Assembly: GCF_007860075.1 (NCBI RefSeq)
Contig: NZ_SJPP01000003.1
Coordinates: 930,001 to 994,000, forward strand
Length of the DNA stretch: 64,000 bases
Reading direction: 5' to 3'
Source: Symmachiella macrocystis
Lineage (GTDB): Bacteria > Planctomycetota > Planctomycetia > Planctomycetales > Planctomycetaceae
This document shows positions 18,557-45,093 of this stretch, in pieces (the first letter of the stretch is position 1; each line of letters starts with the position of its first letter). Under the pieces are notes generated by a model, which saw only the letters and a program-made list of their open reading frames with translations, had not been told where the DNA came from and searched no databases. Both the position numbers and the translations under genes were made by a program.

Positions 18557-19678
18557 TCAATTCCTGGACGCACTCTGATCTCGCCCAGTTTTTGTGGGAT
18601 AACTCTCGTCCATCTCCCAGGTGAACCTGCGGCCACGATCACGAAAGATCCACTGTTTACGCTCCGGCATCTCCTCATAGTCGGAGTCTACTCCACGTCT
18701 GATTTCAATCGCACGTTCCTTGTCTCCAGTTTGATACAATGCCTCGGCAAGTAGTTTGCGAGAATAGGGGGCTGAGTCCACGGTAACCGATTCTTCGAGG
18801 AGTTTTCGCGCGCGAACCGGATCGTGATACCACGACGATGTTAAGTCCAAGAGTAACTCCGCCAATTTAACTTTGTTCCGGTCGTTACTCGGATCCTGCT
18901 GAAGCAACGAATCGTAGATGAAATAATACTCGCCATACTCGCCACGCGCAATATGAGCCTGACCCAAACTACGCATCTCATTTTGGCGTTCCCCCTCCGA
19001 CTTAGCCTCTGTAATCAAAGCACGCCGATCCTCAATAAATTTCCGACGACGTTCTAACAATGCCGTGTCGTCCACCAATTTGTGGGTTTTTATGTGACTC
19101 CCCGGAAACATCGCGGATATTTTGTCATGTCCGAAATATCCTGCCACCAACACAACCAACGTCCAGAGAATCCCGCAGACGATGATGCCGGGCCACAAAC
19201 CCAAGTGGGATTTCGGGATGGGCATCAATTGTGATGAGTCCTTGGCGGTTTCACTCGGAGGCGGTACTGGAATCTCGGGCGCTGCTGTCGGAGTCGCTAA
19301 TGCTGATTGCACAGGTGGTTGAGCGAGCTCCTGGTCAGAGGTCTCCACAGATACCTGAAAACTGGCCAGTGTTTGCGCCAAAGCTTGGATGTCAGGTCGA
19401 TCCATCTTGTGGATCGCCGCCAATGCCGCATCAAGTTGCGAGAGTGTCTTAGCCAACACCCCTTCATCGATATGCGCATCGCCGTAGCGGCCGTCATTGT
19501 AGATCGCTTGCACGTTGTCCGACGTTTCGCGAGGCAGCAACTCGTTGTCGACCAAAAAACAAAGATAATCGCTCAGTAAGTAATTCGGCGGCTTGGGTAG
19601 CCCAGCGGATTCAAAATTCCGCAACCGCTCCGTCAGTTGCTCGATCGTGCCATTGGGGGCAATTTCAGCCTGGGCCAT
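18557..19678 (-). CDS. one-TM protein with TPR-like C-terminal part, tandem paralog 1
   Basis: This 373-residue protein of unknown function is the downstream member of a tandem pair. Its N-terminal cytoplasmic domain (1 to about 110, EQLTERLRNFESAGLPKPP, DYLCFLVDNELLPRETSDN) resembles a small protein-binding helical domain. It is followed by a Pro/Ala linker, one membrane segment (IIVCGILWTLVVLVAGYFG, about 180-198) and a helical TPR/Sel1-like region with KLLEESVTVDSAPYSRKLLAEALYQTGDKERA. About three quarters of the first 100 residues are identical to the neighbour at 19902. AAGGAAA precedes the ATG, and a TATAAT lies about 40 bases upstream. Confidence 0.75.
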   Translation of the reverse strand: MAQAEIAPNGTIEQLTERLRNFESAGLPKPPNYLLSDYLCFLVDNELLPRETSDNVQAIYNDGRYGDAHIDEGVLAKTLSQLDAALAAIHKMDRPDIQALAQTLASFQVSVETSDQELAQPPVQSALATPTAAPEIPVPPPSETAKDSSQLMPIPKSHLGLWPGIIVCGILWTLVVLVAGYFGHDKISAMFPGSHIKTHKLVDDTALLERRRKFIEDRRALITEAKSEGERQNEMRSLGQAHIARGEYGEYYFIYDSLLQQDPSNDRNKVKLAELLLDLTSSWYHDPVRARKLLEESVTVDSAPYSRKLLAEALYQTGDKERAIEIRRGVDSDYEEMPERKQWIFRDRGRRFTWEMDESYPTKTGRDQSASRN

Positions 19679-19901: not shown

Positions 19902-21062
19902 TCAATCCCCAGGCCACTCCGCGGTGCCGCTTTTTTTGGGGACGAGCGATCCAGGCCCGCTGACCGGTGGAACTCCTCGACCATTTTCGCTGAACCTCAG
20001 AATTCCAATTCCTCTTAGTCTTCCTCTTCCTTTAATTTCCGCTTCATATAAGGCAATGTCCGCCTTTTGTCGGAAATCCTTCGCCTGTTCCGCGTCACCT
20101 GTTTGATACAATGCTTCGGCAAGCACTCGCAGTGAATAGGTGTCTGGGTCCAAAGCAACCGCCTCCTCGGCGAGTTGCAACGCACGATTTGGATCGTGAT
20201 ACCACGGATTCGTCTTGTCCAACAGAAATCCCGCGAAGTTGATTTTGTTGTGTGGGTTGTTCGGATCCTGCCTGATCAGCGAATCATAGATGAAATAGAA
20301 CTCGCCATATTCTCCATTCCTGAGATGGAATCGAGCCAAATTCACCAGCAAATCTTGACGTTCTTTTTCTATATCAGTCTGCTGAATTAAAGCGCGCCGA
20401 TTGGTTACAAATTGTTGGTGGCCTTTTCGCGACTCCCTGTCTTGCACTAACTTGCGTTCTGGATCTTCCCATTGAAGCTTGGCGGGCTCTTCCTTTTTCA
20501 ATAAGGAAGAAATTTTGTCATGTCCATAATATCCGGCCACTAGCACAATCAACGTCCACAGGAACCCGCCGGCCAGGATACGCAGCGACTTACGAATGGG
20601 AGGATTTGCGACCGGCATGAACCTTGATAAATCGTCAGCCGATTCGCTCCTGGGGAATGCCGGAATATCAGGGGCAGTCGCCGATGCTGGCTTCACCGGC
20701 GACGGAGCAGGAACCTGGCCCGGTGTCTCAGCAGGAACCAGAGAACTTGCGAGCGATTCCCCCAAAGTCTCGATGTCCGATCGATTCATCTCGCGTAAAG
20801 TCGCCAACGCAGCATCAACTTGCGCGAGCGTCTTGACCAAGATTCCTTCGTCGATCGGCGCATCGCCGTAGCGGACGGCATTGTAGATCGCCTGCATGTT
20901 GTCTGACGTTTCGCGCGGCAGCAACTGATTGTCGACCAAAAAGCCCAGGTAATCGCTCAGCAAATAATACGGCGGTTTGGGCACCCCAGCGGATTCAAAT
21001 TTCCGCAACCGCTCTGTCAGTTGCTCGATCGCGCCGTGTTGGGCAATTTCAGCCTGGGACAT
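19902..21062 (-). CDS. one-TM protein with TPR-like C-terminal part, tandem paralog 2
   Basis: This 386-residue paralog of the adjacent protein has the same layout. An N-terminal domain (EQLTERLRKFESAGVPKPP, DYLGFLVDNQLLPRETSDN) leads to a linker, one membrane segment (ILAGGFLWTLIVLVAGYYG, about 165-183) and helical repeats (NRALQLAEEAVALDPDTYS, LRVLAEALYQTGDAEQAKD). The two copies are closest in the N-terminal domain and around the membrane segment and diverge in the linker and tail. This suggests that the cytoplasmic domain keeps a shared partner. AAGGAAT precedes the ATG. It has its own promoter, so the pair need not be an operon. Confidence 0.75.
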   Translation of the reverse strand: MSQAEIAQHGAIEQLTERLRKFESAGVPKPPYYLLSDYLGFLVDNQLLPRETSDNMQAIYNAVRYGDAPIDEGILVKTLAQVDAALATLREMNRSDIETLGESLASSLVPAETPGQVPAPSPVKPASATAPDIPAFPRSESADDLSRFMPVANPPIRKSLRILAGGFLWTLIVLVAGYYGHDKISSLLKKEEPAKLQWEDPERKLVQDRESRKGHQQFVTNRRALIQQTDIEKERQDLLVNLARFHLRNGEYGEFYFIYDSLIRQDPNNPHNKINFAGFLLDKTNPWYHDPNRALQLAEEAVALDPDTYSLRVLAEALYQTGDAEQAKDFRQKADIALYEAEIKGRGRLRGIGILRFSENGRGVPPVSGPGSLVPKKSGTAEWPGD

Positions 21063-21105: not shown

Positions 21106-21226
21106 ACCAAGACCTTTCTATAAAACGAATTTTTTGGGCGTGGAATCACCAGATGCCTCGAAACCGCGTGAAATCAGCCGGGGAAGCGGTCACCAAAGAG
21201 TTGAAAATGGGGCGGCAGTCACAGGG

Positions 21227-21315
21227 CGTACCAGTGCAACTTCAAATCTGCACGAGACTTGCGAAACATTGACAGAGCCAGTGGCACTCTCGTTCTTCAA
21301 TTTGACACTGCACTA
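21227..21315. repeat. dispersed inverted-repeat element, decayed copy (family I, copy 1)
   Basis: The right arm AGAGCCAGTGGCAC (about 21274-21287) is intact, and the left arm is reduced to CCAGTGCAAC. The right end reads CACTA, whose complement supplies the TAG stop of the leftward gene at 21313. Compare the copies at 24760 and 30038. Confidence 0.75.
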
Positions 21316-23142
21316 CTTCAGCGACGCTTGATCCCAGGGAAACAACATCGTCGGCTGGTTCGCGTAGCGCTGCATATTGATAATGATTTTCGTCCCCGAC
21401 CCCGGTGCTAAGCGTACCGTAAACGAAGGCGCGTTGATATCCGTGGCGATGCCGTCAATCACGATCGACTCGCATTGGTGTTCCCCATAGGCTCCCCCTT
21501 GCACCACCACATCCCGCGGTTGTGATTGGCTGGTGTTAATCAACGTGACTGTTGTTTGGTCGGCGGAAAGTTTCTCAACCAAAGCCGCCACCGAATCGGG
21601 GACGCCCGCCCGCCGTTTGATCGGGTCGAAATAACGCAAGCGGCAATGCAGTGGAGCACCGCGATGACCGGGATGAATCCCGCCCAACATCTGGGAAATC
21701 AACGAGTTCACGCTGCAAGGATTGAAAGGCATCGGATCATCGGACAACCGCGTGTCGGGTGTCGTGTCGTCGTTTCGCATGCCTTCGACCTTACGACGAA
21801 TCGCAGCGAAATCCGCTTGGAGAGCGCGGACCGGGTAAGTAGGATCTTTGCCGTCGAGATAATTCAGCCAAGCGTTGCTGCCCAGACGTTCGCGATCTTC
21901 CGGCAACATCGACCAATAATAAATCTCTTGCGCGCCTTGTGCGTAGGGGGACGGCCCGTAATTGTACCAACCGTTGTCGCCGTACATCCGCGGGTACATT
22001 TTTTTGCCGTTGATCGTTTTGACCTGCGCGTTGATCGCCTTGATCATATCGCGCCAGACGTCGACATATTTTTGGTCACCCGTTAATAACAATGCATTGC
22101 CGAACCCGGTAATCCCCAGACCATGCGTGTTGCGGTGCGCCAGTTGTCCGTTGGCCGGGTTGCGAACGGAAAACCCCCACCCGTAAACTCCGCCATACCA
22201 TTTGCCGTCGGTTTCGCCGCCAATTTTCCCATTCAAGCCGATATTGGTGGGAATGATGCCGTCGTTGCGCAAAGTCCGTTCCCGCCAGGCATCGACGTAT
22301 TCCAGCAACCACTCTTTGTACTTCGGTTCGTGGGAGAGCATATAGGCGTTGAGCGCCAATGAGGTCGCGCCCATGTTTTGTGGATGGTCGCCGACAATGT
22401 CGTTGTAGTCCTGAAAATGCTCAAGCATCTGTTCGTAAGTATCTTCGCCATGCCGCGGCTTGAATCGTCCTTTGACCTCAATCGGGTCACCCGCCCAATC
22501 CAAGCCGGTGGCTTTACGCATCAGCGGACCGCGGCTGCCGTTAAACAGGCTGCGGATAATCTTGTGGCGGGGATCGTAGTTTTGCGCACCGGGATCTTCG
22601 TTGAGATAAAACCCGGCGAAGCGCCGCACACGTTGGCGAAACGCATTGTCATTGGGGTCACCCAGGCCTTGCAGATCAAAAACCGTAAGCCCCTCGCCAT
22701 TGTGGACCCAATCCATCGTCACCGGGAACTCTTTGTAATACATCCCGTCGCGGGCAAAAGGAACTTCGACCGTCTTGGCTTCGGTGAATTGCCGCAGATG
22801 CCCCTCCCAAGCATGCTTGTACATCTTGAGAATTTCGTCAGAAGCACCCAACGCGTGCAAGATGGGCCAATCGTTACAATTCTCGATCGCATCGTCGGGC
22901 CCGTCGTCTCCTCCCCAACGTTCGACGCACATCAAATAGCCGCGCTCGTCGAAATACTTATCAAAGAATTCCCGGCAGGCAGTCAGATTCTCACGGAGCA
23001 AATCCCGTTGCATCACAGCCCAGGCTGGCGGAGGCATCGGCGTTTCGACATTCACGACGACGTCGGCGGCGCTGGCCGGGTGAGTCGACGAGAGCAGAAT
23101 TAAAACGGCAAAGACACGTGCCAATTTCCAGGTGATTTCCAT
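21313..23142 (-). CDS. exported 609-residue protein of unknown function, possibly alpha/alpha-toroid
   Basis: The protein has a signal peptide (VFAVLILLSSTHPASAAD) and no membrane segment. Aromatic- and Trp-rich helical motifs (ERWGGDDGPDDAIENCNDWP, TMDWVHNGEGLTVFDLQG, ENPANGQ-like RNPANGQLAHRNTHGLG) suggest an (alpha/alpha)6 barrel as in six-hairpin glycosidases or polysaccharide lyases. A beta-sandwich-like C-terminal part (TVTLINTSQSQPRDVVVQGG) follows. I do not recognise a specific family, so activity on carbohydrates is only inference. Its TAG stop is the last base triplet of a dispersed repeat. Transcribed alone. Confidence 0.7.
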   Translation of the reverse strand: MEITWKLARVFAVLILLSSTHPASAADVVVNVETPMPPPAWAVMQRDLLRENLTACREFFDKYFDERGYLMCVERWGGDDGPDDAIENCNDWPILHALGASDEILKMYKHAWEGHLRQFTEAKTVEVPFARDGMYYKEFPVTMDWVHNGEGLTVFDLQGLGDPNDNAFRQRVRRFAGFYLNEDPGAQNYDPRHKIIRSLFNGSRGPLMRKATGLDWAGDPIEVKGRFKPRHGEDTYEQMLEHFQDYNDIVGDHPQNMGATSLALNAYMLSHEPKYKEWLLEYVDAWRERTLRNDGIIPTNIGLNGKIGGETDGKWYGGVYGWGFSVRNPANGQLAHRNTHGLGITGFGNALLLTGDQKYVDVWRDMIKAINAQVKTINGKKMYPRMYGDNGWYNYGPSPYAQGAQEIYYWSMLPEDRERLGSNAWLNYLDGKDPTYPVRALQADFAAIRRKVEGMRNDDTTPDTRLSDDPMPFNPCSVNSLISQMLGGIHPGHRGAPLHCRLRYFDPIKRRAGVPDSVAALVEKLSADQTTVTLINTSQSQPRDVVVQGGAYGEHQCESIVIDGIATDINAPSFTVRLAPGSGTKIIINMQRYANQPTMLFPWDQASLK

Positions 23143-23635
23143 GATGCCAAATCCTAGCGGTGGGAATTGCGGAGGGAGTACAGCTCAGGCGGGATTGTGT
23201 ATTGCCTAATACATCGACACCCATTTATCTAAACGATTCCGCCACAACGTTGCAAGCATACTGCCTAAGTTCCCACCGGTGACTATTGGTCGGAAAGTTA
23301 CGAACCACGAAAAAAACGAAACACACGAAAAACCACAGAAAACCCTAGCGAAAGCGACAAAGTCTTATGGCGCTGAAGTCGAACTCAAATAAGCAAGACG
23401 GCATTAAAAACGGAAGTTCCTTTTCGTGTCTTTCGTTGTTTTCGTGGTTAATTTTCTTCAATTGCGGCCAAACGCCGCGCATCGAAACCGCATGGGCAGG
23501 TGTTGGACTGCCCCCGATTCGTTGCCGTTTCTCACCGATTTGGCATCGGTTATTTGGCGAGCGCCCTGCTGATCGCGTATGCTGTTCTCAACGAGGTTGC
23601 CGCCTAGACTGTCTGTCCAGTGGAGAACACCGAAC
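23143..23635. repeat. intergenic region with an inverted pair of TTTCGTG repeats
   Basis: A sequence of about 35 bases (consensus TTTTTCGTGTGTTTCGT followed by TTTTCGTGGT) occurs on the minus strand at about 23302-23336 and on the plus strand at about 23421-23458. The two flank 84 bases. A third copy is at about 34677-34715. No gene is supported in this gap; the start of the next gene is at 23636. Confidence 0.7.
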
Positions 23636-24598
23636 ATGCCGCACACGATTTCCCGACGCGAATTTCTTGCTGGCACGGCGACCGCGCTGGCGGCGGGGCC
23701 GACGCTGTTTGCTGCTGAATCGCAGCCTGAAAAAACTCCCCGCTATTTAGACTTCCATGTGCATTTGACGCATCGCTGGTTTGGCGCCGAACGGGGACCG
23801 GTGACCGCTGACGTGCTGTTACGGTGGATGGACGCTCACGACGTCGAGCGCGCCGCCGTGTTGCCGCTGGTCTCTCCCGAGGCCTTTTGGTATCCGGTCA
23901 CCAGCGAATTTGTCATTACTGAAGCCGCAAGACACCCCGATCGCCTGATCCCATTTTGTGCGATCGATCCGCGGACGCTCGGTACCCATCTGCCCGAAAC
24001 CAAGCAAGTCGTCGACATGCTCAACCGCTACGTCGATGCCGGGGCACGGGGATTTGGTGAGCATAAAGCTTTGTTGGACATCGATGATCCGCTGAACATG
24101 AAACTGTTCGAAGCGTGCTCCGCTGCCAAATTGCCGGTACTGTTTCACCTAGACAATCGGGCCAACATGGACAAACCGGGCTTGCCAGGATTGGCAAAGG
24201 TGCTCAAAACGTTTCCTGAATTGGTAATGATCGGCCATGGCAAAGGTTGGTGGGCGTCGATTGCCGGGGGATTGGCACAGCCCGACCTACACGTCGGCTA
24301 TCCCGCAGGACCGGTTGCTCCGGGCGGCGCCATCGATGCGTTGATGGATCGATACCCGAATCTCTATGGCGACCTGTCTTCCAGCGGCGCACATGCCTTG
24401 TTGCGCGACCGTGAGTTTGGCAGCGCGTTTTTGCAGCGACGCGCGGACCGGTTACTGTTCGGCACCGACTTTTACGATCTGACGCAAGAATCGTTTCCGC
24501 AATTCGACCTGTTCCGTACCTTCGACGTCGAAGCCAAAACCCGCGAGAAAATCGCCCACAGCAATGCTGCCCGACTGCTCCGTCTGGGGGTACCGTGA
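23636..24598 (+). CDS. Tat-exported amidohydrolase (amidohydrolase-2 / TIM-barrel metal hydrolase)
   Basis: This 320-residue protein has a twin-arginine signal (SRREFLAGTATALAAG), so it is exported folded, probably with metal bound. The TIM-barrel amidohydrolase-2 pattern is seen: first-strand metal motif DFHVH (about 39-43), FCAIDPRTLG, PVLFHLDNRAN, MIGHGKGWW and the late DRLLFGTDFYD with the last metal-type Asp. Members hydrolyse or decarboxylate cyclic or aromatic acids and lactones; the substrate here is unknown. The start is the ATG at 23636 because it begins the Tat signal directly. Confidence 0.85.
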   Translation: MPHTISRREFLAGTATALAAGPTLFAAESQPEKTPRYLDFHVHLTHRWFGAERGPVTADVLLRWMDAHDVERAAVLPLVSPEAFWYPVTSEFVITEAARHPDRLIPFCAIDPRTLGTHLPETKQVVDMLNRYVDAGARGFGEHKALLDIDDPLNMKLFEACSAAKLPVLFHLDNRANMDKPGLPGLAKVLKTFPELVMIGHGKGWWASIAGGLAQPDLHVGYPAGPVAPGGAIDALMDRYPNLYGDLSSSGAHALLRDREFGSAFLQRRADRLLFGTDFYDLTQESFPQFDLFRTFDVEAKTREKIAHSNAARLLRLGVP

Positions 24599-24759
24599 TG
24601 AAATCGGGCACGCCACGCCAAGCAGCGTTTTCCAATGCCACGCGATATTGAAACGGCGTAAGCCTCAGCCAGCATTCCGCTACCTCCCCACTCGCGGGAA
24701 TCAACGCACTGGACAGTCGCACGTGGTCGAGTCGGTTGCCACAATTTCAGACGTCAGTT

Positions 24760-24860
24760 GGGTGCCACTGGCTTCGCCAGTACAGCTTCAAACCTGAGTG
24801 AGACTTCGAAATACTGGCAGAGCCAGTGGCACCCTCGTTCTTAAAATTGCCGATGCACTA
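24760..24860. repeat. dispersed inverted-repeat element (family I, copy 2)
   Basis: Arms GTGCCACTGGCTTCGCCAGT (24762-24781) and ACTGGCAGAGCCAGTGGCAC (24813-24832) are inverted repeats with two differences, and each arm is itself a palindrome. The right flank (TCGTTCTTAAAATTGC...GCACTA) matches copy 1 and ends with the complement of the TAG stop of the leftward thioredoxin gene. Confidence 0.85.
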
Positions 24861-26105
24861 GTTCGCAGGGGCTTTCAAATCCGGTCCCTCTTGCGGTTTT
24901 TGAAAAATCTGCTTTTCGACCTGGTTGAGCGTGGCCTCCATTTCAGCGCCTCCTAAGACCCGCGCTTCTTTAAGTGCTTCCCGAGCTTCATCTTCCTGTT
25001 TGAGTTTATGAAGCAAATCTGCACGGGCAATCAAAATTCGAGCTGAGAGTTGCTTATCTTTTGTGAATTCCTGACGCATGCGACCGGTGACTTCTAAAGC
25101 ATCCTCAATTTTGTCCAATTGAACCAATGCTTGCAATTTGGCGCTGAGAATCGGCAAGCGCAGATCCTCTTGAGTGGCTTTGTCCGCCAACAGCGAGTTG
25201 GCCAACTTCAGCACGTCATCATTCCGTTCCTCCATCTGTAGGAGTTGCAAGCGGAAACGAATGCCAACCTCACGGGCGGGTGCAAAGCCTGCGAATTCCT
25301 TGTCAATCTCATCGATTTTTTTCAGGGCGGCGTCAACGTTTCCGGTCGTTTGGAGCAGCGTCTGAATTTCCTTCAATTTCACTTGCAATTTCGAAATCAA
25401 TAACTGATCCGCATACTCCTTACGCAGTCCCGCTTGGTTGTCCGCATCTAAGCTGACGATTTCCTCGACGACATCCGCATAGGAAGTGAACATCCATTGC
25501 GGAGGAATGTCACTCAGCGCCTCATCCAGTTTTAAGGCCTTTTCAATGCCCGAGAGTTTGCCAGCGGCGGCGAAGGCTGCGTCGCGTTTCTTACGCAGGT
25601 CGGTAAATTCGCTCAAATGCTCAACGTATTTCTGCGGACCCACTGGTTGGTAACCGGTGCGGGCATAGGGACGCCCCTCTTCATCGACCAGCAAAATCGC
25701 CGGAAAGCCCTCGATCGAGAACTTCTGCTGCAATTTGTTATTCTGCGCCTGGACCTGAGGCGTGATAAGCGACGCATCATTGGGGAAATCGACTTCCAAC
25801 AGGACAAAGTCCTTGGTCGCTCCGTCAGAAAAAACTTTGTACTGGAACACTTTGTTCTGCAGTTCAATACAGTAGCCACACCAGTCGGAACCGGTGAAAT
25901 TAATCAGGACGTCCTTGCCTTCCTTCTTGGCCTTTGCCAACGCAGCCTTGTAGTCGGTCGTCCAAATCCCTTTGGGGGCCAATTCCGTGCTGGAACTGTC
26001 TGTGGCGGAAGTCTCGCTGCCACAACCCATTAAGGAGAAACAACTAAAACCGACAGCGACAAACGCAGTGGCAACAAACAGTCTCAGAACTCGCATGGAC
26101 AACAT
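24858..26105 (-). CDS. thioredoxin-family lipoprotein with TPR-like C-terminal region
   Basis: This 415-residue protein has a lipoprotein signal with candidate lipobox LMGC (Cys28). A thioredoxin-fold domain carries DWCGYC (Cys76, Cys79) and the cis-Pro region EGFPAILLVDEEG. About 200 residues of helical repeats follow. The CxxC is intact, so a membrane-anchored thiol reductase or isomerase acting on the periplasmic side is likely. I chose the ATG at 26105 (TGAGGAAA just before it) over an upstream TTG. The stop codon lies at the edge of a dispersed repeat. Confidence 0.85.
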   Translation of the reverse strand: MLSMRVLRLFVATAFVAVGFSCFSLMGCGSETSATDSSSTELAPKGIWTTDYKAALAKAKKEGKDVLINFTGSDWCGYCIELQNKVFQYKVFSDGATKDFVLLEVDFPNDASLITPQVQAQNNKLQQKFSIEGFPAILLVDEEGRPYARTGYQPVGPQKYVEHLSEFTDLRKKRDAAFAAAGKLSGIEKALKLDEALSDIPPQWMFTSYADVVEEIVSLDADNQAGLRKEYADQLLISKLQVKLKEIQTLLQTTGNVDAALKKIDEIDKEFAGFAPAREVGIRFRLQLLQMEERNDDVLKLANSLLADKATQEDLRLPILSAKLQALVQLDKIEDALEVTGRMRQEFTKDKQLSARILIARADLLHKLKQEDEAREALKEARVLGGAEMEATLNQVEKQIFQKPQEGPDLKAPAN

Positions 26106-26258
26106 TTTGTATTTCCTCAAATCATTATAAATATGACGCAAGCAGCGAGGGCATTGTATCCATCAACATCCTGGCCGGTTGTAATCGGGTTCACACTGGT
26201 ACAGCCACGGGAATAAATCGGGAGATTTTGGGAGTTATCGTAGATTGGGGAAAATCCG

Positions 26259-29087
26259 TCAATTCGATTCGCCAGATTGCCCAATCACGTTCACAAACCC
26301 GTCCGATGTGCAAACGACGATCTCCAGAAAGCTGTCGCCATCCACATCAGCAATTATTGGCGGCCCTGCCTCTCTGGACAACTTTAGCGTCCAGAGCACT
26401 CTCTGCACGCCGTTAGTCGCCTGACCACTAAGCGCCGTGAGCGTGTCTTTTCGGCAAAATATTGCCTCAGGCAACCCGTCGCCGTTGATATCGGCCGCCG
26501 CCTGGTCGCTGATCTTGGTCATTTCGAACTTATTTCGCCAATCTTCCTTACCAGTCTTTACGTCATACGCGACTAAATCGCCGGAATGTTCCAGCACAAT
26601 TGCTTCCAGACGTCCGTCACCATCAAAATCAGCCACCGAGACTTCGTGCGATAATGGGTTGGTTTGGTAGGATGAGGGGACACTCCACAGCGGCTTCCAA
26701 TCGAGTGTGAGGGCACCGACCGTACCAAAACTGGCCGACGCAAAAATCTCCCGCACACCATCTCCATCAGCATCGACGGTAACGGGCGAACAATAAGCGC
26801 ACCACGAATCGCTGAGTACCGAATGCAAAAACGGGGTTGGCTCCAGCGACATTCCCGTTTGCCCGTTGATCAAGCAAATATAATCCAAGGCCAAAAACAA
26901 GAGATCGTCAAAACCATCGCTATTGAAATCGTGGACGACGATGCCTTTGGTCGGAAAACATCCACGGTCGTTTTTGGGTTCGAACAATTGCCGCTCGCCG
27001 GGCGGATACAAGTCGGAGACATGTTTGCGATGCCACAACGTGCGGCCGGTCTTGCCGTCCAAGGCTAGACTTTGCCCGCTCGATTTGCCGGCGTTGTGAA
27101 ACGTGAGAAAGACGTCTAGCACATCGTCGTCGTTGAACCGCCCCGCATGAAAGCGATCCAGGCGGCTGTCTTCGTCGGCATAGGGAACTTCGTCAAACGT
27201 GCGTGTCCAACGCTCCGTCCCATCGGCGTTTAAGACCACGAGCCGACAAAGATCGTTTGGCGAACAGTCTTGATACAAAATCTCCGGCTGGCCGTCCGCA
27301 TCGAGATCGGTTGCCACCGGGCCACGCCATGATCCTTTGTACCCCACGGTCGACGGCTCCCCCCAACCGGGCCGCGTCCATAACGTGCGCGGGAGTTTAT
27401 TCGCACCGTCCGGGGCGGAGAGAGCCACAATTTCCTCCCGGCTGTTTTGCAGCAACAGTTCCGCACCGGGCGTATCATCCAGATTGACCGCAATGGGAAA
27501 CGAGAACCGGCCCCCCTGTGGTTGTCGCGAAACCAATGTCGCCGCTGCACCCTGGCTCTCCATTTTCCCGGGACGATGTTCCAATTGCACAATTGCTTCG
27601 GCCCGTTGGTCGCCATCGATATCGCGAAACTGCTCGACCGTGAACCGCGTTTGTTCGGGTGGGTTTATTTTCCATTTGACAGCGAATTGCTCATCCCTGT
27701 CCAACCCCACAGCCAAGAGCGCTTCCGCTCGTCGGTTTTGATCCTCATCGAGACTCAGCAAGACTTCAAGTTTGCCGTCCCCATCCACATCGCCGCGGGC
27801 CACAGCCAAATTTGCATCGACCGCCATGGAACGGCTGTTGCCCGGCAGCGGCTGCGCATACCGCAGCCAACGGCCGCGCGGAAACTTGTGAACGGTTGCA
27901 TACTCGCCATCACGAATCCGAGCGATTTCAATCGGCGAATATAATGTCCGCTGCCGCAAGGGGACGTGGTCGCACAACAACTCCAACGCGCCATCGCCGT
28001 CGAGATCGACGATGTCGTGGACGTACTTATCGGCCAGACTCATTTCCACCCGGCCCGATTTGATGTCGCGTACAATCATCCGCCAATGGCCGTCGGCGGG
28101 AATGTTGAACAAGTTGTAGACCATCTCCAACTCGCCATCGCCATCCACATCGACAATCGGATCGTGCGGGACACGTAGGATTTCATCACGGGCGGTCGAA
28201 TACTCGTATTGCCCTTCCCACGGCTTCCACATTTTTTGGCCATCGTTGTCGATGTAATCGACATGCAACACGAAGTCACACAGAATCACGATTTCGGGAA
28301 ACGGGTCATCGTCGATGTTCACGATTCGCGAGTAACCATAATTGCGATGCGCGGCGTTCTCGCATTCCATTTGCACCGCTCCGGTGCGGCCGTCGAAAAC
28401 AATCGCCCGGTACCAGGTGACAAGTACCGCTTCGTCATCGCCATCTCCGTCCATGTCAGCGGCATGCAATTGGGGGGCTTGCGGATTGCGGTCGACCTCG
28501 ACCTCCCAGACTTGCTCTGCCTTATCAAATCCATCCTTGAAATCAAAACAATAACCGCCGTTGTAAACCACCCGCTCTCGCGCCTTGACACCCCAAAAAA
28601 CAACCTGCGAGCCAGCTTCACCAGGCAGAAACCGGCCGACGACATATTGCGCTATGGGATGCTCAAACGTATGCTGCCAAAGCACCTTTCCCGCTGCGTC
28701 AAAGATCGTGGCTTGTTGGCCCTGCACGACAATCCGCTGCTGGCGTCCGTCGCCGCGCAGGTCATATGTTGTCGGCGGCACCGTCCAGCCGGCAGGCAGG
28801 GGTTGGGACAATGCCGTATCGTCAATCGCCAACTCCGCGTTCTGGTCCGCGATCGTTGTATGCAGAGCGACGCGTGTGCTCCATTGGCCCAGAAATTTTC
28901 GCCACTTGATTTCCGGCTGCGTGATCCGCCCCTGCCCCGGCGCAAAACCGGTCAAAAACCGATCCCGCCGATAACAGGGCCATTGCCCAGGCCACTCCGG
29001 TTCCGCGGCAGCGGCCGAGAGCAGACAGACATGCGCAGTCGCCATGAAAACCAGCGACCCCAGAATGAAGGTGCGAACCACGGGCAT
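26259..29087 (-). CDS. giant exported FG-GAP/VCBS-repeat propeller protein
   Basis: This 942-residue secreted protein has a signal peptide (LGSLVFMATAHVCLLSAAAAEP). It carries about fourteen calcium-binding DxDxDG-type loops, each followed by a hydrophobic strand, for example DMDGDGDDEAVLVT, DVDGDGELEMVY, DLDGDGALELL, DADGDGVREIF and DFDGDGRLEAIV. Such repeats form integrin-like propellers that bind calcium and act in adhesion or as scaffolds; no catalytic motif is seen. PQQ-like segments (LVAYDVKTGKEDW) are mixed in. I start at 29087, directly before the signal peptide; the frame is open 59 codons further without a good start. Confidence 0.85.
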   Translation of the reverse strand: MPVVRTFILGSLVFMATAHVCLLSAAAAEPEWPGQWPCYRRDRFLTGFAPGQGRITQPEIKWRKFLGQWSTRVALHTTIADQNAELAIDDTALSQPLPAGWTVPPTTYDLRGDGRQQRIVVQGQQATIFDAAGKVLWQHTFEHPIAQYVVGRFLPGEAGSQVVFWGVKARERVVYNGGYCFDFKDGFDKAEQVWEVEVDRNPQAPQLHAADMDGDGDDEAVLVTWYRAIVFDGRTGAVQMECENAAHRNYGYSRIVNIDDDPFPEIVILCDFVLHVDYIDNDGQKMWKPWEGQYEYSTARDEILRVPHDPIVDVDGDGELEMVYNLFNIPADGHWRMIVRDIKSGRVEMSLADKYVHDIVDLDGDGALELLCDHVPLRQRTLYSPIEIARIRDGEYATVHKFPRGRWLRYAQPLPGNSRSMAVDANLAVARGDVDGDGKLEVLLSLDEDQNRRAEALLAVGLDRDEQFAVKWKINPPEQTRFTVEQFRDIDGDQRAEAIVQLEHRPGKMESQGAAATLVSRQPQGGRFSFPIAVNLDDTPGAELLLQNSREEIVALSAPDGANKLPRTLWTRPGWGEPSTVGYKGSWRGPVATDLDADGQPEILYQDCSPNDLCRLVVLNADGTERWTRTFDEVPYADEDSRLDRFHAGRFNDDDVLDVFLTFHNAGKSSGQSLALDGKTGRTLWHRKHVSDLYPPGERQLFEPKNDRGCFPTKGIVVHDFNSDGFDDLLFLALDYICLINGQTGMSLEPTPFLHSVLSDSWCAYCSPVTVDADGDGVREIFASASFGTVGALTLDWKPLWSVPSSYQTNPLSHEVSVADFDGDGRLEAIVLEHSGDLVAYDVKTGKEDWRNKFEMTKISDQAAADINGDGLPEAIFCRKDTLTALSGQATNGVQRVLWTLKLSREAGPPIIADVDGDSFLEIVVCTSDGFVNVIGQSGESN

Positions 29088-29333
29088 GCCGTTGTCTCGA
29101 TAATTGTGGGAAGAAGGAGTGGGGACGATATCTAATCTAGTCCAGGGCTGAGCAAAAGAGAAGCAGGAGTGTGTTAACCACTGTGAGTTGGGGTCGTGTT
29201 CTCGGCCAGTGAGTCGGTAAGATAGCAAATGCTGAATTTTGTTCGCGGGAGTTCCGCTACCCATTAACCGGAGCGTCGAAAAGCAACACTGGCGGCAACG
29301 CCAGCACGAACGAGCAGCATCGCCGTTACTGTA

Positions 29334-29987
29334 ATGCGTGCAGGTTTCGAAATGGATCCAGTAGAATTAAACCAAGACCAAATTCGTGATGATTCCTCGG
29401 AGGAACCGTCTGTCGCCTTGATTCAACCGACGGGCGATCTGTCACCATTTTTGAATTACAAGATTCACATTGTTCGCGGTCGAAAAGGCGAGTTTGATTT
29501 CCCCGCGATGCTGTTTGGAAGGGGCAGTTACGGAGTTTTCGCAACCAATGAAAATGAATCAATCCCTCTCACTCGAAAGGGAAAGGAGATCGAAACGATA
29601 TTGGCCAGCGAGTGGGATCGGCTCGTGCAATCAGACCCGGTTGTGTTGGCTTCGCTGATTCTTCTACTCTATGGAAGTGGTAGCAGAGAGACACACCATG
29701 TCCTAAAAGACGCCGCCGAGCTCCAATCGATGTGCCAGAATTCGAGTGGTTACGAACTCCACGAGAAACGTTTCGAGTATCACTTGCCGAGAATCAAAAC
29801 GACATACATCAAAGTTGAAAACGATTTGGCGTTAGTGCGCGCTGTCACGCTTTTTGGTCGGATGCATGACAAAGGAAATCTGGGCATTGAACGATTTTCA
29901 ATCGATCGAAATGGAGTCGTACTCCCCCAAGAGCGCGAGCTAATCTCTCGAAATATTTTCTCTCGCATTCCAGGCATAAAGTATTAA
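29334..29987 (+). CDS. hypothetical cytoplasmic protein
   Basis: I do not recognise this 217-residue protein. It has no signal peptide, membrane segment or cysteine motif. An N-terminal acidic part (NQDQIRDDSSEEPSV) precedes a mixed alpha/beta region (HIVRGRKGEFDFPAMLFGRG). ATG codons at 29334 and 29352 are both possible; neither has a clear ribosome-binding site. The base composition is slightly more AT-rich than its neighbours. It sits alone between a leftward FG-GAP gene and a dispersed repeat. Confidence 0.55.
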   Translation: MRAGFEMDPVELNQDQIRDDSSEEPSVALIQPTGDLSPFLNYKIHIVRGRKGEFDFPAMLFGRGSYGVFATNENESIPLTRKGKEIETILASEWDRLVQSDPVVLASLILLLYGSGSRETHHVLKDAAELQSMCQNSSGYELHEKRFEYHLPRIKTTYIKVENDLALVRAVTLFGRMHDKGNLGIERFSIDRNGVVLPQERELISRNIFSRIPGIKY

Positions 29988-30037
29988 GTATGCAGGAAGA
30001 ATGCGACCAGCGTTTTATCGCGGTTCAGCTTTCGAGT

Positions 30038-30140
30038 CGGGTGCCACTGGCTTTGCCAGTGCCGTTTCCATCGAGCGCGATACTTGCGAAGCACTGGCAA
30101 AGCCAGTGGCACCCAGGTTTTCAGGTTTGTCAACACACTA
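30038..30140. repeat. dispersed inverted-repeat element (family I, copy 3, best preserved)
   Basis: Two perfect 20-base arms, GTGCCACTGGCTTTGCCAGT (30041-30060) and its reverse complement (30093-30112), are separated by 32 bases. The flank ends CACACTA at 30140, the complement of the TAG stop of the leftward FHA gene. The overall size of about 103 bp and the flank pattern agree with copies 1 and 2. Confidence 0.9.
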
Positions 30141-32231
30141 GTTCAACTGCGATTGCACAAACCAAACCACTGCATAACCCGCAACCAATGCGGCCGTGAT
30201 GAGTACGACGGATCGGATGACGGACAGTATCCGCCCCCCGCGGGATGGTTCTGGTTTTCGTACGGGTGCCCAATCGGGCCGGGGTAACGGTTCGGCGCGC
30301 GATGTTTCGGCGCGAAAGTTTTGCTGCAATTCTTCGAATGCGGCGCGTTCTTCACGCAGTTCGTTCTGCTGACTCTCGAGCGCCTTGCGCTGTGCTGCGA
30401 TTTCGTCAAGTTGTTTCGTGCGTTGCTCCGATTCTGCGACGGCATTATCGACAGTTGCAAGTTGTTGTTGCTCGTTGGCCGCTGCGCCTCCTTGTTCGCT
30501 GAGGGCCGTAGCGGATTCGCGTTCCCATTCGCGGCGGCCTGTGGAAAGCTCTTCCCGCTCGGTGGCCAGCTGTTGTTGTTCCTGCGAAACCGCCTCGATT
30601 TCGGCGTCCAACTCAACTTTTAAGGCGTCTAGTTCCCGGGACTGGGCTGCCACCGCTTTGGCTTCGGTCTGAAGTGTTTCCCGCTGTGCGTCTACATCGG
30701 ACCACTGCGCTGCGAGTTTCGCTTCCCGTTCGTCCAACGTTTTTTCCGCGGCCACTAATTCCTCTTGGTTGGCAGTTGTCAAAGTCGCCAATTGCAATTC
30801 CAGTTCAGCAATCGTCTCGGCTGCCTGTGTCGCTTCGTCTTGCCAGCGTTGCTGTTCTTCGGATTGTTGTGCGAATTCCGTTTTCATTTGTTCCAGTTCC
30901 TTCTGGTGTTGATCCAAATCGGTCTGGTGTTGATCCAAATCGGTTTGTTGCTGTGCGATCGACTGGGCGAGGCATTGTTCGCCGTCGACCGCTTGCTTCA
31001 ACGCCTCTTCCATGGAGACGGTCTTGCCCTGCAATTGATCGCGTTCCCGCAGCACCGACGCCAACGTTTTTTCCAACTTGGTCTTGGCCTGAGTCGACTG
31101 CTGATGTGCAGCACGCAACTGCTCGGCTTCCTGAAGGAGTGTAGTGTGTGCGTCTTGCAGCTTGGCCGCTTGCTGTTGCGCTGCATTGCTGGAGTCTGTT
31201 TGTTCTTGCCATTGATCGCGTTCTTGCCGCAGCAACAACAACGCCTGCTCCGCATCGACTTTGGCTTGCGACATCCGCGATTGCGATTCACGCAGTTCGG
31301 CAACTTCTTGCTGGAGTGCCTCGTGCGTTTGGCGGAATTCCGCGTCCGTGGCCTCATGCTCACCCAGTTGTTTTTCGTGTCCTGCAATCCTCAACTCTAA
31401 GGACTCTCGTTCCGACCGAAGCTGCTCCCACTGCACTTGAAGTTGTTTTTGTTGTGCTTCAAGTGAAGTGCATTGATTCAAAAACTCCTGCCGTTTAGTT
31501 GCGAAGAGATTTTCTTGCTTGTCGAGTTCTTGCCGCGATTGTTTGATTTCATCCAAGTCGGCAAGTGATTGGGCTTGATCGGTTTCGAGTTGGCAGCGAT
31601 CCTCGTCCCATTGTTCGCGTGCTTTATCGAGCTGTTCGCGGTCCGTATCGGCCTGTTGCTGCAGTTCGTCAAACTGTTGGCGATCCGCCAGCAATTGCTC
31701 CGCATCTGATTCCAGCGTCGCAGTGCGTTCCGTGAGTCGATGGCGCTGTTGCCTCAACTCCTCGAATTCGCATTCGAGTTTCTCGCGCTGCCGCTCTAAG
31801 TCAGCCCGGTCCGACGCAAGATGTTCGCAATCTTGCTGTATACGCTCGGCGTCATCCTTGAGCAATTGGGTTGCGGCGACATCGGTGGGAACCAGATTGG
31901 TTTCCACAGTGAATTCGAAATGGTCGATGGTCAATCGATCCCCATTGCGTAACTTGCCGACCTCCAGCTGTTCATCATTCACTTGAACGCCGCATTGGCT
32001 GCGCAGATCACGTATGCGCAGTTGCCCCGCATCGAGCGTAATAGCGCAATGGCTCCGCGATATTTTCGGCGAGACCAACTGAATATTGCAGCTCTTCGAT
32101 CGCCCGATCATCGTCGTCGACCGCAAGATATCCTTGGTCACCCGTTCCTGACCAGCCTGGATGACGAGGCGTGCGAATTCCTCGGCGACGTCGGCTGGTT
32201 GATCCGGTGGTTGCGGTGTTTTTTGAGACAT
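30138..32231 (-). CDS. FHA-domain protein with very long coiled coil and C-terminal membrane anchor
   Basis: This protein of about 697 residues begins with a forkhead-associated domain (about 30-115; MIGRSKSCNIQLVSPKISRSHC, RDLRSQCGVQVND). FHA domains bind phosphothreonine peptides, and the conserved Gly-Arg, Ser and His are present, though the usual Asn-Gly near the end is Cys-Gly. About 500 residues of Gln/Glu-rich coiled coil follow, and then one membrane helix right at the end (VVLITAALVAGYAVVWFV). It thus looks tail-anchored, with a rod reaching into the cytoplasm. I chose ATG 32231; a GTG at 32291 would add 20 residues. The target kinase is unknown. Confidence 0.8.
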   Translation of the reverse strand: MSQKTPQPPDQPADVAEEFARLVIQAGQERVTKDILRSTTMIGRSKSCNIQLVSPKISRSHCAITLDAGQLRIRDLRSQCGVQVNDEQLEVGKLRNGDRLTIDHFEFTVETNLVPTDVAATQLLKDDAERIQQDCEHLASDRADLERQREKLECEFEELRQQRHRLTERTATLESDAEQLLADRQQFDELQQQADTDREQLDKAREQWDEDRCQLETDQAQSLADLDEIKQSRQELDKQENLFATKRQEFLNQCTSLEAQQKQLQVQWEQLRSERESLELRIAGHEKQLGEHEATDAEFRQTHEALQQEVAELRESQSRMSQAKVDAEQALLLLRQERDQWQEQTDSSNAAQQQAAKLQDAHTTLLQEAEQLRAAHQQSTQAKTKLEKTLASVLRERDQLQGKTVSMEEALKQAVDGEQCLAQSIAQQQTDLDQHQTDLDQHQKELEQMKTEFAQQSEEQQRWQDEATQAAETIAELELQLATLTTANQEELVAAEKTLDEREAKLAAQWSDVDAQRETLQTEAKAVAAQSRELDALKVELDAEIEAVSQEQQQLATEREELSTGRREWERESATALSEQGGAAANEQQQLATVDNAVAESEQRTKQLDEIAAQRKALESQQNELREERAAFEELQQNFRAETSRAEPLPRPDWAPVRKPEPSRGGRILSVIRSVVLITAALVAGYAVVWFVQSQLN

Positions 32232-32701
32232 GACATTCAACCCAGTGTCCGGCGGGTTCGCAGAAAAACCGGTATCGCTAGACAACTTCACCTATCAAAA
32301 ATTGGCCCATTGGAAGTCAAACACCCAGCATGCATTGCGGCAAATGAGTGGAATCCCCACATTACCACGAAAATGTCCATTATTCATAGCGAAACCTGTG
32401 TTCGGTGAGAATATTGCGAATCAATGCTCACTGAGACAACGCTGTCCGACGTATAGGAATCCAGGGTGCTATAATCGTGCGGGCACCTTGTTCGATAATG
32501 CCCCGTTGGGCGACATTTGCACTGCCGAGGCCTCATTTCTAAGCTGTCTCTCATAGTCCATTGAACTGCGGATGTCTGTTCTGCGGGTTGATTGAACAGC
32601 TCGGTTTGTGAACAATTCCGACCAGCGACCTGCGGGTCACGACTGAACCAAGCATCTATTGCCCCGTCACCGACGACGGGCTTTCAGGTCAACTTCCTGT
32701 T
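32232..32701. promoter_or_regulatory. divergent intergenic region; possible -10 box at 32470-32475
   Basis: No gene is supported. A perfect TATAAT on the plus strand at 32470-32475 could serve the gene at 32702, but no good -35 is seen and the leader would be about 220 bases long. The rest shows nothing I recognise. Confidence 0.3.
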
Positions 32702-45048: not shown

Positions 45049-45093
45049 GCGGGTGCCACTGGCGGCTTGTCCGCCAGAGGGCCCGTGCTGGCC
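45049..45093. repeat. divergent relative of the family I inverted repeat
   Basis: GGGTGCCACTGGCGGCTTGT then CCGCCAG forms a CTGGCGG/CCGCCAG hairpin and shares GTGCCACTGGC with the elements at 24760 and 30038. It lies 10 bases after the stop codon of the heme protein gene, that is, in the same position relative to a gene end. Confidence 0.55.

Follow-up and report, generated by a model that had tools for sequence, protein, structure and literature searches.

Short repeats in Symmachiella macrocystis with ends in register with TAG stop codons

Bacterial genes can share their last codon with a dispersed repeat, and this is the case for three genes in a 64,000-nucleotide stretch of the Symmachiella macrocystis genome (contig NZ_SJPP01000003.1, positions 930,001 to 994,000; G000:C3:930001-994000 in the source genome, G000, of 7.57 Mb and 6 contigs), here called the window. 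Each of the three is closed by a TAG that is also the end of a short repeat of one family, family A, and across three congeneric genomes 18 of 76 distinct family A copies end exactly on a predicted stop codon. Family A is probably a non-autonomous element with terminal inverted repeats (TIRs), that is, a miniature inverted-repeat transposable element (MITE), about 133 bp long and carrying two hairpins near its ends that resemble repetitive extragenic palindromic (REP) sequences; it would insert at the TA of YTAR/CTAG-like sites, with the TAG made up of the target TA and a G from the element, and stop codons would be overrepresented among its sites through purifying selection.

The window copies and the register of family A ends

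The three window copies (E1, E2 and E3) and the genes that they end are as follows, with coordinates in the window and matches to the covariance model (CM) of the family.

21188-21315, minus (strand of the gene ended): family A element E1, eroded on the left and with an approximate limit there; CM match G000:C3:951175-951321
21277-21287, minus: E1 right hairpin arm, GTGCCACTGGC
21313-21315, minus: TAG stop made by the E1 terminus
21313-23142, minus: gene of 609 aa closed by E1, with no Pfam family matched at E 0.001
24729-24860, minus: family A element E2, running from TA to TA, its left terminal repeat decayed to GAGTCGGTTGCCAC; CM match C3:954721-954866
24762-24772, plus: E2 left arm, GTGCCACTGGC
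24822-24832, minus: E2 right arm, GTGCCACTGGC
24858-24860, minus: TAG stop made by the E2 terminus
24858-26141, minus: thioredoxin-like gene that E2 ends, of 427 aa when read from the first start and 374 aa according to the gene caller
30008-30140, minus: family A element E3, running from TA to TA over about 133 bp, with CCAGCGTTTTATCGCGG as its left terminal repeat; CM match C3:960000-960146
30041-30051, plus: E3 left arm, GTGCCACTGGC
30102-30112, minus: E3 right arm, GTGCCACTGGC
30138-30140, minus: TAG stop made by the E3 terminus
30138-32291, minus: FHA-domain gene ended by E3

A sequence-only reading of the window had described three repeats with common arms, and they do form one family, with both arms exact in E2 and E3, but E1, the copy at 21227, has the right arm only, its left arm being eroded to GTACCAGTGC. 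That reading had also matched the CACTA at the end of each right flank to the TAG of the adjacent leftward gene, which is true of all three, the CTA lying at the stop of the leftward open reading frame (ORF) and 25 nt from the arm each time. Arm matches in the window number six against 1.24 expected, a count reached in none of 100 shuffles (up to one mismatch was allowed; all six are exact), the sixth being a lone arm at 45053, and the whole of G000 holds 99 exact matches versus 15 for a reversed control pattern. Beyond the left arm, the window elements continue for about 33 nt up to another terminal repeat, which is decayed and in E3 reads CCAGCGTTTTATCGCGG from 30007 versus CTAGTGnTTTGTCACGG in better copies. 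Rfam at the gathering threshold gave no matches within the window.

The wider count rests on genes called with a custom codon-usage ORF caller rather than on curated annotation, the stops being predicted ones. The sample consists of 76 distinct family A elements scoring 45 bits or more (nhmmer) from G000 and the congeneric genomes G001 and G002, the latter two contributing the better ones among the matches listed; it leaves out weaker matches, one locus that is a cluster of other hairpins (L045), one on the same stretch as another (L178, with L067), and ten G001 loci (11 rows) removed as duplicates at sites common with G000. Eighteen of the 76 have an end exactly on a stop (19 of 77 if L061 is counted, which at 43.4 bits falls outside the sample though its end is a TAG at +25), and 58 lie elsewhere. 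Both orientations occur, ten right ends carrying the stop at 25-27 nt from the arm and eight left ends at 24, 25, 29 or 30 nt. Among stops within 0-60 nt, 10 of 27 on the right side fall at 25-27 nt (P = 3e-7 if uniform) and 5 of 23 on the left side at 29-30 nt (P = 8e-4 if uniform), both windows having been chosen after seeing the histogram. Random distances to stop codons are thus not what the three-genome scan returned.

The identity of the stops is as uneven as their position. The 76 elements present 85 stop-facing sides, and the 18 coincident stops are 16 TAG and 2 TAA, versus 25 TAA, 21 TGA and 21 TAG on the 67 other sides (Fisher P = 2e-5 for the TAG excess). CTA is found in the terminal window of 16 of the 18 stop-bearing ends, a figure that is largely so by construction, versus 34 of 134 other ends. 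That such a register is peculiar to family A is seen from a second hairpin family used as control, family B, whose arms face a stop in 16 of 26 cases at scattered offsets of 11-224 nt (8 TAA, 5 TAG, 3 TGA).

Gene ends in relatives without the element

G001 is syntenic with G000 here, at about 88-90% identity. E1 is common to G000 and G001, with TAG at the same place in both; E2 is also common to them, though its G001 copy has an insertion sequence (IS) within the right hairpin and the gene there stops at the same codon with TAA. E3 is missing in G001, where the FHA gene ends ...TTG AAT TGA TAA versus ...TTG AAC TAG in the window, so that TGA stands at the same codon. Presence and absence at orthologous sites are likewise seen at L215 (missing in G000) and L036 (missing in G001). 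At L215, the filled site of G001 reads ...GTG GCT TAG TGCTTTGTCAC and the empty one of G000 ...GTG GCT TAA TAG, with a protein of 353 aa in both, which is the clearest conversion, from TAA to TAG.

For 15 of the 19 coincident sites (the 18 and L061) a relative without family A at the site could be compared; E1, E2, L100 and L204, with no usable relative of this kind, stand outside the 15. The protein end is the same at ten (E3, L215, L036 in G001, L057, L061, L080, L240, L242, L252 and L038) and within one codon at three more (L241, L196 and L243), so that the C-termini are mostly preserved; together with the 18 ends in exact register, this upholds the earlier suggestion of insertion at stop codons. 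An origin by truncation, in which insertion within a coding region makes a premature TAG, is accordingly very improbable. It draws on L238 and L244, the two remaining sites, where the relatives' proteins are about 6-9 codons longer and slight truncation is possible, and on L241 and L196, where relatives are one codon longer; set against these are the ten sites with the same end in the absence of family A, such as the 353-aa gene and the FlgC-like gene at L252 (named from reading its C-terminus), which is 135 aa in all three genomes, and at 13 of the 15 sites truncation is disfavoured.

The stop used by relatives is TAA at L215, L036, L240 and L038 and in one relative of L057 and L243; TAG at L061, L080 and L244 and in one relative of L057, L243 and L252; and TGA at E3, L241, L242, L196 and L238 and, in G002, at L036 and L252. 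Empty sites in relatives, which the sequence-only reading had proposed to look for, were thus found as absences at E3, L215 and L036, but none among the sites compared across G000-G002 has both junctions clean. Five further candidate pairs (L228/L043, L229/L037, L220/L242, L183/L271 and L075/L262) proved too diverged for the junctions to be read, and of 20 comparison regions placed by interpolated position five (L253, L257, L263, L270 and L272) matched no element locus, some others falling short of the site.

Next to E3, about 0.9 kb (window 29101-30007) with a 217-aa ORF lacking a Pfam match (29334-29987) is missing at the syntenic place in G001. Two neighbouring ORFs, 18557-19678 and 19902-21062, the second with TPR repeats, have a 300-nt repeat in common at 77% identity and are probably a tandem gene duplication.

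Element anatomy, target sites and selection

Family A was defined by an alignment of 17 copies and a covariance model. Its core consists of two hairpins of the form CACTGGC-NNN-GCCAGTG, inverted to each other and about 72 nt in total, outside which some 26-34 nt per side lead to a terminal repeat reading (C)TAGTGnTTTGTCA inwards. Among 87 listed elements of the three genomes a TGACAAAnCACTAG-like flank is found at both ends, variably decayed and best seen in G002, and the more intact copies have TA at both ends, so that the same inverted sequence marks the two conserved ends. The family is short, dispersed, non-coding and multicopy and has terminal inverted repeats, as a MITE does. The model matches G000 71 times on both strands, corresponding to 45 sites (38 at E <= 0.001), some of them other hairpin families, and has 82 and 57 such matches in G001 and G002. 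Six other genomes of the taxonomic family were searched: four gave no match and two (G004 and G009) matched weakly, with a best E of about 1e-8 among the matches listed, many of which cover the central part alone. A pattern scan of named genomes, from which near records were possibly excluded, matched 7 contigs, all from planctomycete metagenome-assembled genomes (MAGs).

The arms themselves are common to other hairpin families without family A ends, namely family B (GCACTGGCGGACAAGCCGCCAGTGGCAC) and a cluster at C1:874-883 kb. Locus L045 (G000:C1:870624-887309) has five hairpin pairs within 9 kb, several of them nearly identical, in which 90-94 nt separate the arms; this is a different family with the same arms, amplified locally. 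On contigs of the D1_Bin_8 MAG the same hairpin pair lies between other inverted sequences, of a TTCAATA type (L109, L111) and a AATCAATA type (L112), which suggests several TIR families built on one hairpin pair.

The proposed sequence of events is as follows. Family A would insert at TA inside YTAR/CTAG-like sites, and TAA or TAG stops after a pyrimidine would be such sites; on landing there, the gene would keep the target TA and the element would give the next base, G, so that the stop would become or stay TAG and the protein would be unchanged. Insertions into coding and promoter DNA would be lost by purifying selection, leaving stop codons over-represented among the survivors, and the stop-carrying end would be retained as the free end decayed, presumably for lack of selection on it. 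The TIR-like ends and the TA at the termini suggest a DDE-type transposase as mover, with duplication of the target TA (or the 4-bp YTAR).

The numbers can be compared with a neutral model in which insertion is tolerated at intergenic and stop-codon sites only. In the stretches compared, stop codons make up 7-10% of the available TA and 13-18% of the available YTAR sites, giving 6.3 or 11.3 coincident stops expected among 76 copies versus the 18 observed (P = 4e-5 and P = 0.03, respectively). The base before the stop is C or T at 14 of the 18 coincident stops versus 270 of 603 background TAA/TAG stops (P = 0.007), and family A is depleted between divergent genes, where 7 of 74 copies lie versus 27% of intergenic length in the G000 stretches (P = 2e-4). 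Because of the YTAR expectation, the enriched pyrimidine and the depleted divergent gaps, random YTAR insertion followed by purifying selection accounts for most of the pattern, with a modest excess left over.

That excess is where two further explanations find room. It is possible, though rather doubtful, that stop codons serve as a safe harbour: the Y-TA-R preference and a first base G would regenerate TAG at the same codon on each landing, letting the element spread through gene ends at little cost, and a share at stops above that of random YTAR insertion with purifying selection would mean active stop-codon preference or later selection of hairpins at gene ends. Selection for a structured mRNA 3' end, as the sequence-only reading had offered, would have the elements retained for work there, the hairpin acting as terminator, 3' stabiliser or insulator and the placement at stops being itself selected. 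The same excess over 11.3 and the avoidance of divergent gaps would fit it, as would the commonest form of each hairpin pair, kept in 81-91% of 174 arms, and the gap at L038 (apparently also L057), occupied by family A in G000 but by a family B-like element in G001. It is nevertheless unlikely and this part of that reading goes unsupported, because both ends are used, 58 of 76 copies lie elsewhere than at stops and chance YTAR insertion, with coding and promoter DNA avoided, accounts for most of the pattern. Family B, moreover, lies near stops too, yet without register, and the 15 formal cases of compensatory change among the 174 arms are mostly misplaced eroded arms, two of them (L243 and L245) looking real. 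As to an intrinsic terminator, no T-run lies right at the stem in the family A outer flanks, for example CCCTCGTTCTTA and CCCTATTTTTTAG; TTTT occurs within the first 10 nt in 6 of 26 family B arms.

The putative mover and known relatives

Inverted pairs of the end pattern within 6 kb number six, five of them element-sized or smaller and one spanning 3.1 kb. The latter, beside L204 (G002:C8), was rejected as an autonomous copy, the ORF inside the part of the stretch inspected reading as membrane-protein-like; three end-pattern matches outside known elements (L179-L181) likewise yielded no autonomous element. In G001, the exact CCAATACTGTCCGG ends of an IS of the PF01609 type were found at three places (L345, L346 and L347; one inside the E2 ortholog, at L182:5537, with 426 aa). 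All three lie within the loop of a hairpin of the GTGCCACTGGC type and show a duplication of 7 bp (GCAGAGC, GCAAAGC and GCTTCGG), and this IS seems to home on these hairpins; insertion of ISs into REPs is known.

A different mover, a REP-associated tyrosine transposase (RAYT) of the HUH type with the terminal CTAG as recognition tetranucleotide, had been raised by the earlier reading and is improbable. RAYT-mobilised REPs and REPINs, paired REP elements, are defined by a GTAG or GGAG tetranucleotide at the hairpin foot, and the ends of IS200/IS605 elements are not known to carry the same inverted sequence. In most family A copies the foot is GGGTGC, neither GTAG nor GGAG, with the (C)TAG about 25-30 nt away, and both ends carry the same inverted sequence. 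The paired inverted hairpins are REPIN-like and two Y1_Tnp genes were found in G000 (L105 and L106), but each is near its own REP-like hairpins, which differ from those of family A (GGCCCCGAAAGAATCTTTCGGGGCC at one, GTAG-GTCCGGCTGTGCCGGAC with GTAGGTCCGGCTGTGCCGGAC on both sides at the other), and this speaks against the RAYT as mover. A further point in its favour, that GTAG REPs supply TAG stops elsewhere, is taken from Di Nocera et al. 2013 (PMC3733652).

Several results weigh against the reading of family A as a MITE inserted at YTAR sites and filtered by purifying selection. The 18 coincident stops exceed the neutral expectation of 11.3, relatives are longer at L238 and L244, and TGA in relatives does not fit insertion into an existing TAA or TAG, though drift, or TA sites close to the stop, may lie behind it. 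The lack of an empty site with both junctions clean leaves the target duplication undemonstrated. In the L038 gap, G000 has family A where G001 (L254) has a family B-like element, and the L057 gap (versus L278) is apparently alike, with no arm in the G002 relative of either in the stretch compared. The mover itself has not come to light: TAGTGnTTTGTCA with up to one mismatch is not commoner than its reversed control in the three genomes (19 v 36, 21 v 37 and 33 v 35), no transposase with family A ends was found in them by end patterns (TAGTGNNNTGTCA exact or TAGTGNTTTGTCA with one mismatch, an exact match at C2:1265769 being outside inspection), and none convincing stands beside 36 of the 44 listed PF01609/PF13358 loci, other transposase families not having been searched. 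As a separate observation, the gaps at L038 and, apparently, L057 look as if family A and family B-like elements had replaced one another.

Among known elements, the IS5-type target YTAR coincides with TAA/TAG stops after a pyrimidine; unlike in IS5-type systems, no IS with family A ends was found, and the bias towards TAG points to the element as the source of the G. Like REPINs and RAYT systems, family A has two inverted REP-like hairpins, within about 72 nt, but unlike REPINs it has long conserved flanks and inverted terminal repeats outside the hairpins, and no cognate RAYT was found. Its terminal sequence presumably differs from those of the TA-targeting MITEs RUP and Correia/NEMIS. It resembles these in its length (about 107-155 bp), in having inverted repeats at the ends and in the terminal TA, RUP having a likely IS630-type partner, but the available text on them (PMC2229807) reports no register with native stops, whereas family A has register and no partner transposase found. 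The closest precedent in behaviour lies with GTAG-tagged REPs, described by Di Nocera et al. 2013 (PMC3733652) as short dispersed palindromes near gene 3' ends, which often contribute with their termini the TAG that stops an adjoining ORF and for the most part separate ORFs that are unidirectional or convergent. There the GTAG is at one end of a short stem-loop, unlike in family A, where the TAG lies about 25-30 nt outside an inverted hairpin pair, in an inverted repeat at both ends. The stop register is therefore already known as a phenomenon and family A is a variant of behaviour reported for other bacterial repeats, no report of the family itself having turned up in searches of open-access papers.

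What family A adds is a route, concrete down to the sequence, for a mobile element to settle at gene ends with the protein mostly unchanged, with one readable case of TAA becoming TAG. Because it combines REP-like hairpins with terminal inverted repeats, it bears on the relationship between REP families and MITEs, and it suggests that part of the TAG usage in these genomes is transposon-derived.

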